This document shows positions 7,537 to 52,917 of a stretch of 64,000 nt of DNA, in pieces. The stretch comes from Terriglobia bacterium (GTDB lineage: Bacteria; Acidobacteriota; Terriglobia; Acidiferrales; UBA7541): positions 372,001 to 436,000 of the forward strand of contig JAIQGG010000001.1 in the NCBI GenBank assembly GCA_020072785.1, in the 5' to 3' direction. Below the pieces are notes generated by a model, which was not told the DNA's origin, searched no databases, and saw only the letters and a program-made list of their open reading frames with translations. Position 1 is the stretch's first letter. Each line of letters begins with the position of its first letter. The translations under genes and the position numbers were made by a program.

Positions 7537-8727
7537 TCATCGGGTGGCGGCGGCAGGCTGCAACTTTTCTTCCTGTGGCTGGGAGTGTTCGGGCAGAGAG
7601 AGCGACAGGAGCCAGGCAAAGACGGGGAGAACGGCCAGGAGCAGAAACATCGCGGGAAGCCCGTAGTGGTCGGCCAGGCGGCCGAGAAGCGGGGCGAAGA
7701 GTCCGCCGACGGTGATGGCCAGGCCAAAGGTGACCCCGGAAGCGGTGCCCAGGCGCGTGGGCAGATATTCGTGGCTGAGGACGACCATCACGCTGAACGG
7801 CGCGAACAGCACCAGGCCCACGGGAATCAGCAGCAGGCTGGCCAGCGGGGTGTGCTGCGCCAGCAGCAGCAGGCCCAGGAGCGGGCCGAGCAGCCCGTAG
7901 GTCCAGAGCAGCAGGCGGCGGTGGCCGATGATGTCCGCGGCCCAGCCGCCCGCCAGGGTGCCCACGGCGCCGGCGCCCATGAACAGGGCAAGCGCCAGGC
8001 CGCCGGCGGCCTTGGTGGAGCCGAGAACGCGGATCCAATAGAGCGGGACAAAGGTGTTCAAGCCAAAAAAAATGACCGAGCGGAACATCACCGCTCCGGT
8101 CAGGCGCAGGAACGGCGGCCACTGGTCCTTGCCGGTGATGGGGTGCGCCGCGATGCGCACCGCGTGGGATTTCGACAGCGCGGCGAAGTCCGCCATGCCG
8201 GTTAGCAGCGCAATCCCCCCGAACAGGGGCGCCAGGAGAAGCCATCCCGAACCGTGCAGGCCGAACGCCACGGCCAGCGCGGTGACGGCCAGCGGCCCGA
8301 CGGCGAATCCCACGTTGCCGCCCACGGTGAAAAGGCTCATGGCCGCGTTGCGGCTGGCTCCGGCGGCGAAGCTCGTCAGCCGCGCGGCCTCCGGATGGAA
8401 GATGGCGCTGCCTATGCCCGCGAGGACCAGCGCGAGGAACAGCGCGGGGTAGTGCGTCAAAAAGCCCGATCCGGCAACGCACACGCCCGCCAGGAGCAGC
8501 CCGAAGGGCATGAGCCACGGCGCGGAGCGCCGGTCGGCGAGATGCCCGAACGCCGGCTGCAGCACGGACGAGCTGATATTGGCGGCAAAGATCAAGCCGC
8601 CCGCCGCGGCGTAGGAGATGTGCAGCTCGCTGACGAAGAAGGGCAGCAGCGCCGGGATGGAACCCTGGCAGAAGTCGATCCACAGATGGCCCGAGGCCAG
8701 CAGCGCAACCAGGCGGCGCTGCATCAC
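7537..8727 (-). CDS. MFS exporter, fosmidomycin-resistance (Fsr) type
   Basis: 396 residues, about 12 hydrophobic segments in two halves joined by a cytoplasmic loop (ITGKDQWPPFLR, about residues 200-215). The N-terminal GHLWIDFCQGSIPALLPF and the block AGIGSAIFHPEAARL are hallmarks of Fsr-like drug antiporters in the major facilitator superfamily. The second half has GHEYLP-like VVLSHEYLPTRLGTASG. It would export small toxic compounds using the proton gradient. It stands alone. The start is the double ATG at 8727/8724. Confidence 0.82.
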   Translation of the reverse strand: MMQRRLVALLASGHLWIDFCQGSIPALLPFFVSELHISYAAAGGLIFAANISSSVLQPAFGHLADRRSAPWLMPFGLLLAGVCVAGSGFLTHYPALFLALVLAGIGSAIFHPEAARLTSFAAGASRNAAMSLFTVGGNVGFAVGPLAVTALAVAFGLHGSGWLLLAPLFGGIALLTGMADFAALSKSHAVRIAAHPITGKDQWPPFLRLTGAVMFRSVIFFGLNTFVPLYWIRVLGSTKAAGGLALALFMGAGAVGTLAGGWAADIIGHRRLLLWTYGLLGPLLGLLLLAQHTPLASLLLIPVGLVLFAPFSVMVVLSHEYLPTRLGTASGVTFGLAITVGGLFAPLLGRLADHYGLPAMFLLLAVLPVFAWLLSLSLPEHSQPQEEKLQPAAATR

Positions 8728-47908: not shown

Positions 47909-48358
47909 ATGAAACGGATCGTTCTCATCACCGACGGCGCGTGCATCGGCAATCCCGGCCCGGGCGGCTGGGCCTGTCTCCTCCGTTACAAAGACCGCGT
48001 CCGGGAGTTGAGCGGCGCCGCAGCGGCCACCACCAACAACCGCATGGAGCTCCAGGCCGTCATCGAGGGCCTGAAAGCGTTGCACGAATCCTGCGCCGTG
48101 GTCATCCGCACCGATTCCCGGTATGTGCGGGACGGCATGACCAGGTGGATTCACAACTGGAAACGCAACGGCTGGGTCCGCAAAGAAAACGGCAAGCCCG
48201 GAACGGAACCCATCAAGAATCGCGAACTATGGGAAGAGCTCGACCGCTTGCACCAACGGCATGAAATCCGCTGGCAATGGGTCAAAGGCCACGCCGCCGA
48301 CCCCGACAACAACCGCTGCGACGCCCTCGCCAACCAAGCCGCCCGCCGCAACCCCTGA
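47909..48358 (+). CDS. rnhA: Ribonuclease HI
   Basis: 149 residues. Catalytic acidic residues visible in ITDGACIGNPGPGGWA (Asp), TNNRMELQAVIEGL (Glu), VIRTDSRYVRDGM (Asp) and DPDNNRCDALA (Asp), with the basic handle HNWKRNGWVRKENGKP. Cleaves RNA in RNA-DNA hybrids. Starts 18 bases after the asparaginase stop. The first family B repeat begins two bases after its stop. Confidence 0.95.
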   Translation: MKRIVLITDGACIGNPGPGGWACLLRYKDRVRELSGAAAATTNNRMELQAVIEGLKALHESCAVVIRTDSRYVRDGMTRWIHNWKRNGWVRKENGKPGTEPIKNRELWEELDRLHQRHEIRWQWVKGHAADPDNNRCDALANQAARRNP

Positions 48359-48360
48359 AG

Positions 48361-48464
48361 TTATGTAGGCGCCGGGCTTTGGCCCGGCCAGTCGGAATCC
48401 CGCCCAATCGGGACTGTAGCCACCCGGCCCCGATGTTATGTAGATGCCGGGCTTTAGCCCGGCC
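48361..48464. repeat. Two direct REP-like hairpins (family B) upstream of the RAYT gene
   Basis: 48361-48389 and 48436-48464. Each has TTATGTAG followed by a GC stem-loop: GCCGGGC, TTT(A/G), GCCCGGC. The GTAG tetranucleotide just 5' of the stem is the hallmark by which REP hairpins are recognised by RAYT transposases. Both are oriented toward the RAYT gene. Confidence 0.88.
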
Positions 48465-48544
48465 CGTCCACCCTCCGGTTCATCATCACCTTCACTATAA
48501 TCGATCCGCTATCCCTCCGAATTTCTCCGTGATAGCCTTCGCCC

Positions 48545-49066
48545 GTGCCCTTCTATCTCAAACGTCTGCGCCTTCCCCGGGAAGACTATCGTGGCCGCCG
48601 CATCTGCTTCGTCACGATATGCTGCGAAAAACGGCGCCCCGTCTTCGCCGATCTTTCCCTGGGCCGCTGCACGCTCTCGTATTTGGCCGAATCCGCCGCC
48701 CGGCGCTCTTTTTCGCTCCATTCCTTTTGCCTCATGCCGGACCATCTTCATTTCCTCGCGGAAGGCATGGACGATGCCTGCGACCTCGTGAAATTCATCC
48801 ACGTATTCAAACAACGCACCGCATTTGCCTGCCGCCGCTCAAACTCCCAGCAACTCTGGCAAACGAGATTCTACGACCATATCTTGCGCAGAGCGGAGGC
48901 CATCGAGGATGTGGCCTGCTACATCCGGATGAACCCGGTTCGCCAGGGGCTTTGCACAGACCCGCATCTCTATCCTTTGTCCGGCTCCCAAACAATAGAT
49001 TGGATGAAGCGCAGCCTTGCCAGTACCGAGTGGCTGCCTCCCTGGAAAAGAAAACCGCCGGGCTAA
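48545..49066 (+). CDS. REP-associated tyrosine transposase (RAYT, Y1/HUH family)
   Basis: 173 residues from a GTG. Single-domain Y1 transposase: HUH motif His67-Leu-His69 in FCLMPDHLHFLAEGM, catalytic Tyr110 in LWQTRFYDHILR, and NPVRQGL near residue 130, all typical of RAYT proteins rather than IS200 TnpA. It nicks single-stranded hairpins carrying GTAG. Its stop codon (49064-49066) lies inside an inverse family B hairpin, and two direct copies lie upstream. This is the layout called a REPtron. It probably mobilises or is domesticated to process family B hairpins. Confidence 0.88.
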   Translation: MPFYLKRLRLPREDYRGRRICFVTICCEKRRPVFADLSLGRCTLSYLAESAARRSFSLHSFCLMPDHLHFLAEGMDDACDLVKFIHVFKQRTAFACRRSNSQQLWQTRFYDHILRRAEAIEDVACYIRMNPVRQGLCTDPHLYPLSGSQTIDWMKRSLASTEWLPPWKRKPPG

Positions 49067-49082
49067 AGCCCGGCCTCTACAT
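49055..49082. repeat. Family B hairpin, inverse copy, overlapping the RAYT stop
   Basis: CCGCCGGGCTAAAGCCCGGC then CTCTACAT. On the minus strand it reads ATGTAGAGGCCGGGC..., i.e. GTAG before the stem. Its TAA is the RAYT stop codon. Confidence 0.88.
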
Positions 49083-49153
49083 CCGCCGCCCCTATTTGCC
49101 CTCTTACTGCGCGGCCAGCCCCGCTGAATTGGTTTCGGATTATGTGGGCTGGA

Positions 49154-49284
49154 TTATGTAGGCGCCGGGCTTTAGCCCGGCCCGGATTCCGGTTCCCCCC
49201 GGCGGGTGGTGCCCTTTGTTATGTATTCGCCGGGCGGTATTCATCCCGAGAGATGTTATGTAGGCGCCGGGCTTTAGCCCGGCC
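49154..49284. repeat. Three family B hairpins between RAYT and the methyltransferase
   Basis: Complete direct copies at 49154-49182 and 49256-49284, plus a decayed one at 49219-49236 (TTATGTATTCGCCGGGCG). Same GTAG head and CCGGGC/GCCCGG stem. The last copy and the one at 50664-50692 bracket the methyltransferase gene as direct repeats. Confidence 0.86.
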
Positions 49285-49445
49285 TCTTCGCTCCAGATCC
49301 TGTACCGCCCCCGCCGCCCTTCCGCCCACCGCCCCCCGCACCACCCCTCACGATCATTCTCTTGACACTCGTACCCCTTCGATCAACGATCCCGATCGCC
49401 CGCGCACTTCCCCGTAGCCCGCGGAGAAGACGCCCAAACCACCCC

Positions 49446-50651
49446 ATGACGCCGCCCAAACTCAGCGCGAAGCCCCACGGTTCCCACCCCTCCGTCTCCA
49501 ACCCTCTGCCTCCTCCCGTCTTCCACGACCCCCGCCACAACATCAAAATCTACCAGGGCGATTGCCTCGACATCCTGGAAAAAATTCCCGAAAACTCCGT
49601 GGACCTCGTCTTCGCCGACCCCCCGTACTTCCTTTCCAACGGCGGCATCACCTGCCACGCCGGCCGCATGGTCAGCGTCAACAAAGGCGAATGGGACAAA
49701 TCCAAAGGCCCCGGCGCCAATCACGAATTCAACCGCTCCTGGCTCGCCGCCTGCCAGCGCGTCCTCAAACCCAACGGCTCCATCTGGGTCAGCGGCACCG
49801 CCCACGTCATTCATTCCGTCGGCTTCGCCATGCAGCAGCTCGGTTTCAAGCTCCTCAACGACATTTCCTGGGTCAAACCCAATCCCCCGCCCAATCTCTC
49901 CTGCCGCTACTTTACCCACGCCACCGAAACCATCATCTGGGCCGCCAAGGACAAAAAGTCCCGCCACACCTTCAATTACAAGCTCATGAAGGAAACCAAC
50001 GGCGGCAAGCAGATGAAGTCCGTCTGGACCATCCCTCCTCCCGAGCCCTGGGAGAAGAAGTTCGGCAAGCACCCCACGCAGAAACCAGTGGCCCTGCTCG
50101 AACGCATCCTCCTCGCCTCCTCCCACGAAGGCGACCTGGTCCTCGATCCCTTCCTCGGCGGTGGCACCACCTTGCTCACCGCCTTCCGCCTCCGCCGCCA
50201 CGCCTTCGGCTGCGAACTCTCTCTCGAATCCGTCAGCCTCTCCCTCCGCCGCATCAGTTCCGAATTGGTACAGGTCGATCTTTCTATTTCCTGCCTTCAG
50301 TTTTCCCTTGATCCGTTTCCCGATCCTATGGATCGATCCAATAGCGCCGACGTCTCGCCGGCTCGTTTGTCATCCCGAGCGCAGCGAGGGATCTGCTTTT
50401 CGCTCGGGTGTAGTGGCCGATCTTCAGATCGGCAAGCGAGCGCCAGCGAGCTCTCTTACATGCCGCCTCAGTTCCAACTCGTCCAGCAGGAGCGCCGCTT
50501 CTACTTCATCGGCCGCTCGAAGCGCGAGGTCATCTTCACCGTCCTCGCCGAATCTCTCGACGACGCCTGGCAAAAATTCCGCGCCTCCGGCCGCTCCGAC
50601 TCCGACGCCCTCTTCATCATCAAAACCGAAACCGAAATCTATCTGGCCTAA
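49446..50651 (+). CDS. DpnA-like N6-adenine DNA methyltransferase (beta class) with an added tail
   Basis: 401 residues. Motif IV DPPYFLSNGG (Asp58-Tyr61) precedes motif I (DPFLGGGTT, 234-242), so beta class. The segments HEFNRSWL, NLSCRYFTHATETIIWAAK and YKLMKETNGGKQMKSVW closely follow my memory of DpnA (M2.DpnII), which methylates adenine in GATC on single- and double-stranded DNA. The enzyme core ends near residue 279. The last 122 residues contain translated repeats (family D at 50369-50394, a GTAG hairpin at 50410-50434) and then 63 residues from an internal ATG (50460, PPQFQLVQQERRFYFIGRS...) that could be a separate small protein. Codon use is C-rich, unlike the AT-richer genes that follow. 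Confidence 0.85.
   Translation: MTPPKLSAKPHGSHPSVSNPLPPPVFHDPRHNIKIYQGDCLDILEKIPENSVDLVFADPPYFLSNGGITCHAGRMVSVNKGEWDKSKGPGANHEFNRSWLAACQRVLKPNGSIWVSGTAHVIHSVGFAMQQLGFKLLNDISWVKPNPPPNLSCRYFTHATETIIWAAKDKKSRHTFNYKLMKETNGGKQMKSVWTIPPPEPWEKKFGKHPTQKPVALLERILLASSHEGDLVLDPFLGGGTTLLTAFRLRRHAFGCELSLESVSLSLRRISSELVQVDLSISCLQFSLDPFPDPMDRSNSADVSPARLSSRAQRGICFSLGCSGRSSDRQASASELSYMPPQFQLVQQERRFYFIGRSKREVIFTVLAESLDDAWQKFRASGRSDSDALFIIKTETEIYLA
50369..50434. repeat. Two repeats inside the methyltransferase tail
   Basis: 50369-50394 is a GTCATCCCGAGCGCAGCGAG-type repeat (family D); 50410-50434 is GTAGTG followed by the stem GCCGATCTTCAGATCGGC. Both are read through in frame. The second is a GTAG-headed hairpin whose stem is unrelated in sequence to family B. 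Confidence 0.8.
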
Positions 50652-50663
50652 TCGGCAGTGGTG

Positions 50664-50735
50664 TTATGTAGCCGCCGGGCTTTAGCCCGGCCTCTTCGCT
50701 CTTGTTCTTGCGTAGCGCCGTCCCTTTAGGGCGGC
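50664..50735. repeat. Family B hairpin plus a stem-swapped variant
   Basis: 50664-50692 is a standard family B copy. 50712-50735 keeps GTAG, the spacing and the loop, but the stem is GCCGTCCC/GGGCGGC, so both arms have changed together. Located between the methyltransferase and the DpnI homologue. Confidence 0.85.
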
Positions 50736-50774: not shown

Positions 50775-51542
50775 GTGGACCTGCGTATTCCCACTGCTGG
50801 CCTCGACCGCTACAAGAGCGCCTCCCAACGCGCCCGCGTAGGAACGGAAGCATGGGGTGAACTAAATCTTTTCTGTGTGAACTGTACTTCGGATAGTCTG
50901 GACCGCACTCGCACGAACACACCCGCCGTCGATTTTACCTGCCCAAAATGCGCCGAGCGTTTCCAACTCAAAAGCCAGAAAAGAAGGTTGGGCAACACTC
51001 TCACCGACGGCGCTTACGAGAAAATGCAGGAGGCAATTGAGACCGACAAGACCCCTAACATATTAGCCCTCCACTATGAGCCGGAACGGTGGAGCGTGAG
51101 CAACCTCCTTTTGGTTCCACGCTTTAGCTATACGCTTTCTGTAATCAAAAAGCGGAATCCGCTAAGTCCTACTGCTGAGCGGCATGACTGGGTAGGATGT
51201 TCGATAATGCTCGGAGATATCCCCGCTGAGGCCAAAATTCCACTCATAACAAATGGCAGCGTCCACCCCGCAACCCAAGTGAGGAGGCAATACAACAAAC
51301 TACGCGATCTAGGCAAAATGAGCGTTGAAGCAAGGGGATGGACCCTGGACGTTCTCCGAGTCGTGCATTCCTTGGGTAAACGGGATTTTTTCCTGCATGA
51401 TGTGTATGACTTCGAACACGATCTTTTTCGTCTGCACCCCGCAAACCGACACATTCAGCAGAAGATTCGACAACAACTACAAGAGCTAAGAGACATGGGC
51501 ATTCTTCAATTCCTTGGCCGCGGCCGCTACCGCCTCCTCTAA
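50775..51542 (+). CDS. DpnI-family protein with altered catalytic residue (E64Q)
   Basis: 255 residues from GTG 50775. It aligns without gaps to DpnI at the key positions, from memory of DpnI: zinc cysteines 34, 37, 56, 59; Asp53; Lys66; and the C-terminal winged helix (about 190-255) ending IRQQLQELRDMGILQFLGRG, which in DpnI also reads methylated adenine. The nuclease motif is D53...E64-x-K66 in DpnI but here reads D53...Q64-L-K66 (ERFQLKSQK). The Glu-to-Gln change would usually weaken or abolish cleavage, though QxK occurs in active TnsA. The gene has lower GC than its surroundings, a sign of transfer. Confidence 0.88.
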   Translation: MDLRIPTAGLDRYKSASQRARVGTEAWGELNLFCVNCTSDSLDRTRTNTPAVDFTCPKCAERFQLKSQKRRLGNTLTDGAYEKMQEAIETDKTPNILALHYEPERWSVSNLLLVPRFSYTLSVIKKRNPLSPTAERHDWVGCSIMLGDIPAEAKIPLITNGSVHPATQVRRQYNKLRDLGKMSVEARGWTLDVLRVVHSLGKRDFFLHDVYDFEHDLFRLHPANRHIQQKIRQQLQELRDMGILQFLGRGRYRLL

Positions 51543-51656
51543 TTAATTATTCGAATGCCGTTACACAGGCCTCACGCCGTCCATCTCTGCCAGCCGCATA
51601 TTGGACGTGCCATAAACGACTTTACGAGGCCAGTCGTGGTATAGAATCGTTAAGCA

Positions 51657-52586
51657 ATGGCGAATCCTAAGAAATCAAGAATCCTCGATGAACTCCGCCA
51701 GCGCTTTGGAGACGTTCGCAAACTCAAGGGTAGTGAATCGCTGTTCGTCATCGGAGACGAAGCGGCACGTGTCTACTTCCGGTATTCCAAGGTGCATGCA
51801 GGAGGCCGCACTTTCTTCGGACTGCGCGAAGTAGACTTGCGTCAACTCGAAGGACATAACTCGTTTCTGTGCTTCCTCCTCAACGACGGTTCACCACCGG
51901 TCTTCGTTCCGTATCTGGATTTCGAAGAAGTCTTTGCTAATGCCCAGCCAGCAAAGGACGGACAGTATAAGGTTCAGCTTACTAATCAAGCGAATGCTCT
52001 GGAGCTCTACGTGGCCCGGCAAGGAAGATTCAACGTCGAGGCGTATGTCGGATTCGAAACACTTGAGCGCAGCCTGGAGGCCGAAAAACTCCGTGAGGCG
52101 AGTTCTCTCTCACATTCCCAGGTTCAAACGCTCCTTGCCGGAATTGGCCATGCAAAAGGGTATGAAGTATTCGTGCCTGAATCCGACATCGGAAAACTTG
52201 ACTGGTCTCTGACCAAGGACTTTCCACTCCGTCGCCACCTGCCGGAAGGATTTGATCAAGTGCGTGGAATTCTCCGCGAAATTGATGTCGTGTGGGTTGC
52301 GAATGGTAGGAACAAGATTGAGGGCCTGTACGAGGTTGAGCACTCAACGCCTGTCTACTCCGGATTGCTGCGATTCAATGACATCTTGTTGACGGACCCA
52401 AGGGTTTCACGGTTTTCAATCGTGTCGAACGACGTCAGAAGGGACCTTTTCTCGCGGCAACTTTTCCGGCCAACTTTCAAGAAAAGTGGCCTTGCAGAAC
52501 TGTGCAGCTTTCTTGAATACGCTAACGTCTTCGCTTGGCACCGGCGCCTCTTGAAAGGAGATTCACATGATGCGGCGAACCCATAA
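51657..52586 (+). CDS. Putative PD-(D/E)XK-type nuclease with D..ExE motif
   Basis: 309 residues, family not recognised by name. N-terminal part (about 1-135) is a separate beta-rich domain (VYFRYSKVHAGGRTFFGLRE, FLCFLLNDGSPPVFVPYLDF). The C-terminal part has the usual nuclease order: helix with GIGHAKGYEVFVP (162-174), Asp210 in REIDVVWVANG, then EVE (226-228) in GLYEVEHSTPVYSGLLRFND. Asp-16-ExE is the BamHI-like variant of the PD-(D/E)XK active site. Possible -10 TAGAAT (51642-51647) puts transcription almost at the ATG, with no ribosome-binding site. AT-richer than average, like the DpnI homologue. Confidence 0.6.
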   Translation: MANPKKSRILDELRQRFGDVRKLKGSESLFVIGDEAARVYFRYSKVHAGGRTFFGLREVDLRQLEGHNSFLCFLLNDGSPPVFVPYLDFEEVFANAQPAKDGQYKVQLTNQANALELYVARQGRFNVEAYVGFETLERSLEAEKLREASSLSHSQVQTLLAGIGHAKGYEVFVPESDIGKLDWSLTKDFPLRRHLPEGFDQVRGILREIDVVWVANGRNKIEGLYEVEHSTPVYSGLLRFNDILLTDPRVSRFSIVSNDVRRDLFSRQLFRPTFKKSGLAELCSFLEYANVFAWHRRLLKGDSHDAANP

Positions 52587-52755
52587 CCTGAGACTATACA
52601 CTGTGGTTGAAGTCTGGCGCGGCATCGCCGCGGGCGCAAAGAACTTCACTCGATTACGGGATGCGGAGAAGTACATGCGGCGTCTTCGTCAAGGGCGTAA
52701 TTTGGTGGATGACGACGTGCAGCTTTTCCGGAGCTCAGTCCGAGTCTCAGCGTGA
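52567..52755 (+). CDS. Small basic partner protein of the putative nuclease
   Basis: 62 residues, overlapping the 3' end of the nuclease gene by 20 bases, with AAAGGAG (52554-52560) six bases before the ATG at 52567. The peptide (LRLYTVVEVWRGIAAGAKNF, then AEKYMRRLRQGRNLVDDDVQLF) is well formed: one beta strand, then a basic helix and acidic end. The overlap implies translational coupling. A regulatory, antitoxin-like or accessory role is conceivable but unproven. Confidence 0.6.
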   Translation: MMRRTHNLRLYTVVEVWRGIAAGAKNFTRLRDAEKYMRRLRQGRNLVDDDVQLFRSSVRVSA

Positions 52756-52758
52756 ATC

Positions 52759-52917
52759 ATGCCCTGCATCGCGGACGCAGCCCTCTGCGCGAAGGATCAG
52801 AGTTGCACCGACGATGTTATCGCATTCCCTGAACCCATAGTCCGCCAGCAACTGCAGCTCTTGCGGGACATGGGCTTCCTCGAATTCCTCGGCGGCGGCG
52901 ACTACCGCCTGAAGTAA
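52759..52917 (+). pseudogene. Remnant of a second DpnI-type C-terminal winged helix
   Basis: A short frame from ATG 52759 ends VRQQLQLLRDMGFLEFLGGG followed by DYRLK and a stop. It matches the end of the DpnI homologue (IRQQLQELRDMGILQFLGRG, RYRLL) almost residue for residue, but the upstream half (CIADAALCAKDQSC...) has no similarity. I read it as a fragment left by loss or replacement of a second DpnI-like or related restriction gene. Confidence 0.7.

Follow-up and report, generated by a model that had tools for sequence, protein, structure and literature searches.

How can a DpnI-type protein be kept beside a methyltransferase (MTase) that is predicted to make the very mark the family recognizes? 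DpnI-type enzymes and GATC methylation are held to be mutually exclusive within one cell (PMC4269198). Yet the window, the whole 64,000-nucleotide stretch of DNA analysed here, carries an intact, predicted GATC-specific DpnA-type MTase directly upstream of a dpnI-like gene, at a kind of locus where DpnI-family members are expected to lack an intact GATC adenine MTase. The dpnI-like protein carries glutamine in place of the catalytic Glu64. The first-pass annotation had described this protein correctly and overlooked the adjacent MTase. The features of the locus are listed in Table 1.

Table 1. Features of the dpnI-like locus, in window coordinates.
Feature	Position	Strand	Details and basis
DpnA-type adenine MTase (DPPYFLSNGGITCHAG, DPFLGGGTT), predicted GATC-specific	49446..50651	+	Pfam N6_N4_Mtase 1.7e-57; MTase tree
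MTase C-terminal module, ~60 aa (...IIKTETEIYLA)	50463..50651	+	common to most MTases of the group, absent from Firmicute DpnA
REP-like palindromic repeat	50657..50710	+	between MTase stop and dpnI-like start
DpnI homologue with Gln64	50775..51542	+	GTG start, 255 aa; ORF read, Pfam, PADLOC and DpnI structure matches
Active-site stretch Asp53...Cys56-x2-Cys59...Gln64-Leu65-Lys66 (D-x10-QLK)	50931..50972	+	DNA read directly; DpnI alignment
Methyl-pocket loop RHDWVG, DpnI Arg135/Trp138/Gly140 (window 136, 139, 141)	51180..51197	+	alignment; roles from PMC4117772

Both domains of the DpnI-family architecture are present in the protein, a PD-QXK-type catalytic domain (residues ~1-182) and a winged helix (~185-254), with matches to Pfam DpnI (PF06044, 9.4e-55) and DpnI_C (PF17726, 5.3e-27) far above the cut-offs. 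The protein also matches PADLOC mREase_II (4e-71) and aligns with the DpnI structures 4esj and 4kyw over residues 8-254 (E=2e-60). This alignment has no gap from residue ~8 to ~103, so window and DpnI numbering coincide up to there; beyond residue 103 the window numbers run one above those of DpnI. C34, C37, D53, C56, C59, L65 and K66 stand at DpnI's own numbers, and Q64 occupies the place of DpnI E64. The PD-ExK site of the family (Asp53, Glu64, Lys66) is incomplete, Asp53 and Lys66 being kept and position 64 being Gln. In DpnI, Asp53 and Glu64 are ligands of the site-1 metal, and Lys66 is positioned next to the attacking water (PMC4117772). Gln64 is placed by aligning the protein, gap-free, with the solved DpnI structure; a single-sequence AlphaFold model had a pLDDT of 34, too low to be of use.

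The alignment and the PF17726 match bear out what had been noted at first pass, namely zinc cysteines 34/37/56/59, Asp53 and Lys66 at DpnI numbers, a complete winged helix, and a Glu64-to-Gln change, and no other Glu takes position 64 in the alignment. The aligned window protein has the known Gm6ATC-reading residues of DpnI (Ser17, Gln18, Asn48, Arg126, Leu129, Arg135, Trp138 and Gly140), together with the winged-helix equivalents of DpnI Lys229 and Arg231. A replacement Glu elsewhere was also considered and rejected: no acidic residue near the active site is conserved only in Gln64 proteins, so the sequence alignment offers no substitute.

A search for PF06044 covering the phylum (396 genomes), the class (399) and the family (89) returned 27 full-length homologues with Gln64 and 15 with Glu64. 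Whether Gln64 defines a clade, a question put by the first-pass annotation, can be answered positively: 26 of the 27 full-length Gln64 proteins form one clade in this bacterial class (support 100/98), represented in the tree by 27 rows, these 26 and a damaged Gln64 copy from G581. Position 64 is Gln in 26/26 clade members and Glu in 15/15 homologues outside the Gln64 set, as it is in DpnI and gonococcal Drg, and it is the only site fixed differently between the clade and the Glu64 homologues. Gln64 is a fixed clade feature, not a chance or one-off change. The 27th Gln64 protein (G730) clusters with the sister group, next to a congeneric Glu64 protein; Gln64 may therefore have arisen twice, or a reversal may have occurred.

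Mean identity within the clade is 55%, and 48 of 255 positions are invariant, among them Asp53, Gln64, Lys66, the four Cys, Gln18, Arg126, Leu129, Arg135 and the winged-helix Lys/Arg; Trp138 is kept in 23/26 and Gly140 in 24/26. Judged by these positions, the Gm6ATC-reading residues known from DpnI are essentially unaltered. Pairwise dN/dS is 0.12 for G697-G679, a pair lacking this MTase, 0.09 for G605-G511 and 0.15 for G481-G555, with saturation in other pairs, and these values exclude gene decay. Beyond these genomes, viral contigs gave no match to the search pattern and only winged-helix matches in an alignment scan, and phage and plasmid collections contained only Neisseria Drg and one winged-helix fragment.

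What the substitution would do to catalysis can be approached from two sides. On one side, the Glu64-to-Gln change is chemically identical to EcoRI E111Q, Glu111 being the ExK glutamate of that PD-(D/E)XK enzyme. EcoRI E111Q binds its site with sub-nanomolar affinity and does not cleave (PMC4742970, PMC5409509), although it was made in the laboratory, whereas Gln64 is natural, fixed in a clade and found in a methyl-dependent family. On the other side stand the PD-QXK modification-dependent endonucleases (Mrr, MspJI, BisI/NhoI/Eco15I), which are active with Gln at this position, where it is said to serve equally well in binding the metal (PMC11347163, PMC12707154). Their motif spacing, D-x(10-12)-QxK (PMC4926085), is shared by the D53-x10-QLK of the window protein. 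By sequence, the Gln64 protein belongs to the DpnI family and not to Mrr or BisI, and it is a putative nuclease. The first-pass statement that such a change usually kills activity holds for EcoRI and fails for the PD-QXK group. The invariance of Asp53, Gln64 and Lys66 favours retained metal and phosphate binding, perhaps with slow or conditional cutting.

The upstream gene encodes a beta-class adenine methyltransferase on the same strand, whose stop lies 123 bp before the dpnI-like start. In the tree it groups (100/100) with the MTases of GATC systems, from Lactococcus pSRQ700, two Staphylococcus plasmid operons and one Lactiplantibacillus plasmid operon, apart from the CcrM/GANTC enzymes. It scores 57.9% to the MTase of pSRQ700, which we take to be the LlaDCHI plasmid; the Staphylococcus and Lactiplantibacillus operons have the same Dam-type MTase / MTase / REase layout. 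Its recognition region, NPxPNLSCRxFTH-TET...KQMKxVW...GKHPTQKP, is that of the GATC-system MTases and lacks the CcrM insertion. A CcrM-like GANTC enzyme is ruled out by the tree and this region, which together point to GATC specificity, and the MTase very probably makes Gm6ATC. The DpnII-type operons (DpnM-DpnA-DpnB; LlaDCHI) likewise contain a DpnA-type MTase, but here neither DpnM nor DpnB is present, the second gene is of DpnI type, and the MTase has an extra C-terminal module.

As in a Type II restriction-modification (R-M) system, a cognate MTase adjoins the nuclease-like gene at the window locus, and this arrangement recurs. At 15 of the 27 Gln64 loci, the window included (2 of the 15 are cut by a contig end), the gene immediately upstream, in the same orientation, encodes the DpnA-type MTase; this is so at none of the 15 Glu64 loci (Fisher p = 2e-4, a value behind which, the proteins being related, stand few independent events). 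Among 89 family genomes, ~22 encode the MTase, 22 match PF06044 and ~12 do both (p = 5e-4). The intergenic gap is 3-10 nt in 10 of the 15 paired loci, which suggests co-expression, and the two genes are probably co-transcribed; the wider gap in the window is accounted for by the REP-like palindrome between them. At a sixteenth Gln64 locus (G605), the MTase lies 3.4 kb upstream with another R-M-like unit in between. That insertion (L072, 2775-6145) is a putative R-M/defence unit with an N4/N6 MTase carrying TSPPYNIGKKYEK. The DpnA-type MTases are conserved at 71-84%, with motifs IV and I mostly intact. Two damaged cases were also seen: in G539 (L062, 1140-2435), where the Gln64 dpnI is intact, the upstream MTase is probably inactive, its catalytic DPPY being replaced by DPPN, and in G587 (L073, 8333-8770) the catalytic middle of the MTase is deleted, with the C-terminal module and the downstream Gln64 dpnI retained. 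GATC avoidance was dropped as a discriminator, because observed/expected ratios are alike in Gln64 loci with the MTase (0.80), Gln64 loci without it (0.79) and Glu64 loci (0.78).

The Glu64 relatives show a different pattern. In G307 and G009 a Glu64 dpnI starts where the Dam N-terminus (PFLKWAGGK...EPFxGxGA) breaks off. This dam-replacing layout thus occurs beyond Neisseria, in other classes of the same phylum (L014 of G307, ~7545-7739; L015 of G009, just upstream of dpnI). The gonococcal enzyme Drg, shown to cut GmeATC (PMC4269198), has as its neighbour a DpnA-like MTase that a frameshift divides into pieces of 125 and 92 aa. In these neighbourhoods the Glu64 homologues show the conflict with methylation that an active enzyme should cause. 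According to a 2024 survey, winged-helix endonucleases rarely have an adjacent MTase, and the directly adjacent m6A/m4C examples that it names are frameshifted (PMC11037411). R.DpnI of Streptococcus pneumoniae and Drg/NmeBII of Neisseria share with the Gln64 protein the two-domain architecture, by sequence, the zinc site, Asp53, Lys66 and the Gm6ATC readers. Two things set the clade apart: Gln64 throughout, and frequent pairing with an intact methylase predicted to act on GATC. The Glu64 members examined stand alone or beside broken GATC methylases.

Either gene can also be found without the other. Four genomes that are 94-99% complete (G478, G517, G523, G210) hold an intact Gln64 gene and no match to PF01555 (E<=1e-15) or PF02086 (E<=1e-5), our cut-offs for MTase candidates, so these genomes do not fit a Type II nuclease, which would not be kept without its protecting MTase. 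Cutting of unmethylated GATC is therefore also unlikely, and the Gln64 protein appears, on this gene content, not to be lethal on presumably unmethylated GATC. Intact Gln64 genes without this MTase occur in G697 and G679 as well. Conversely, the MTase is kept with a frameshifted dpnI in G405 and G557, and with only the dpnI 3' end left in G553, G611, G485, G530, G397 and G682; frameshifted or partial dpnI copies are present in G405, G557, G581, G448 and G423. The two genes are each dispensable, and either has been lost independently.

Mobile DNA surrounds the locus. Within 48354-49302 and 50657-50710 the window has six REP-like palindromes of the GCCGGGCTTTAGCCCGGC type, most of them with TTATGTAG in front, and they surround a RAYT-like Y1 transposase gene (48545-49066). 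Downstream, at 51627-52755, an REase-like gene (51657-52586; weak PADLOC REase_II match, 6e-7) and a 62-aa ORF (52567-52755) form a mobile pair with 88% nucleotide identity over 1129 bp to another G605 contig (L161); in other genomes the pair lies away from dpnI. The REase-like gene was accordingly rejected as a third operon member. Just past the pair, at 52834-52914, is a second copy of the last ~27 dpnI-like codons. Comparable copies of the 3' end follow an intact dpnI in G605 (two), G467 and G451, and in six genomes such a copy is all that remains of dpnI behind the MTase. Insertion or recombination may be concentrated at the dpnI 3' end.

Taken together, the best reading remains the one proposed at first pass, binding without cutting or conditional cutting, and the adjacent predicted GATC methylase strengthens it. 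If the Gln64 protein cut Gm6ATC efficiently, MTase-bearing genomes expressing both genes should not survive; the genomes therefore speak for a protein that does no such efficient cutting in its own cell. We give about an even chance to a Gm6ATC binder or a throttled, conditional nuclease able to coexist with its own writer MTase, and rank it, with the same confidence, ahead of the alternatives below. In this two-gene unit, the DpnA-type methylase would most likely place m6A on GATC. Its DpnI-fold partner keeps the whole Gm6ATC-reading surface, contributed by both domains, along with the zinc site, Asp53 and Lys66. With the metal-binding Glu64 fixed as Gln, cleavage would most likely be abolished or strongly throttled, and Gm6ATC binding kept, perhaps even tightened, as with E111Q at the equivalent EcoRI position. 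The Gln64 protein could then serve as a reader of Gm6ATC or as a roadblock; alternatively, it could be a nuclease dependent on a further condition. Either way it would tolerate the methylation produced by its operon partner. Instead of destroying its host, the protein probably reads the mark or tolerates it. More tentatively, the pair may be a natural writer-reader operon, in which the DpnA-type methylase writes Gm6ATC and a cleavage-deficient, DpnI-derived protein reads it; with similar reserve, a single fixed substitution in the active site may have turned a restriction enzyme into a dedicated m6A reader.

Several observations weigh against binding or throttled cutting. The invariant Asp53, Gln64 and Lys66 are what a working PD-QXK nuclease would be expected to show, and Gln64 genes without the MTase (G478, G517, G697, G679) fit stand-alone restriction better than a reader of self-methylation. 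Each gene is often lost alone, and the activity and GATC specificity of the MTase are predicted from homology. The strongest alternative, possible although unlikely, is that the protein is still an efficient Gm6ATC-dependent (type IIM/IV) nuclease with a PD-QXK site, beside an MTase that is silent, inactive, conditional or of other specificity. Invariant reading as well as catalytic residues, the activity of PD-QXK enzymes, intact genes without MTase in several genomes and the DPPN motif of the G539 MTase would all suit such a nuclease. The 71-84% conservation of the MTases, their mostly intact motifs IV and I, their GATC-type recognition region and the co-expression suggested by 3-10 nt gaps argue against it, as does the fact that examined Glu64 relatives never retain an intact adjacent MTase of this type.

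A conventional R-M pair, in which unmethylated GATC has become the target of the DpnI-like protein and the MTase shields the host, is improbable. The tight gene pairing is consistent with it, as are the frequent loss of the nuclease with the MTase kept, including dpnI 3'-end remnants, and the faster divergence of the DpnI-like protein (~55% identity) than of the MTase (~75%). However, a nuclease flipped in this way could not outlive its MTase, and the gene is intact in the near-complete genomes G478, G517, G523 and G210, which have no MTase candidate, and under purifying selection in the G697-G679 pair. The m6A pocket and winged-helix readers are kept, and none of the published DpnI pocket mutants cuts unmethylated DNA (PMC4117772). 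Neutral decay, with Gln64 marking a dead, carried-along gene, is very improbable: the frameshifted or partial copies in G405, G557, G581, G448 and G423 fit it, but across the clade it is at odds with a Gln64 invariant in 26/26 at 55% mean identity, with D53 and K66, and with dN/dS of 0.09-0.15.

A clade that often keeps both genes, with the catalytic Glu as the only fixed difference in the enzyme, contrasts with the supposed mutual exclusion of DpnI-type proteins and GATC methylation. The Gln64 clade is thus a natural experiment in which an active-site residue may settle the conflict between self and non-self. Were the Gln64 protein to bind but not cut, it would represent, in a prokaryote, a dedicated reader of m6A in partnership with the writer of the mark.
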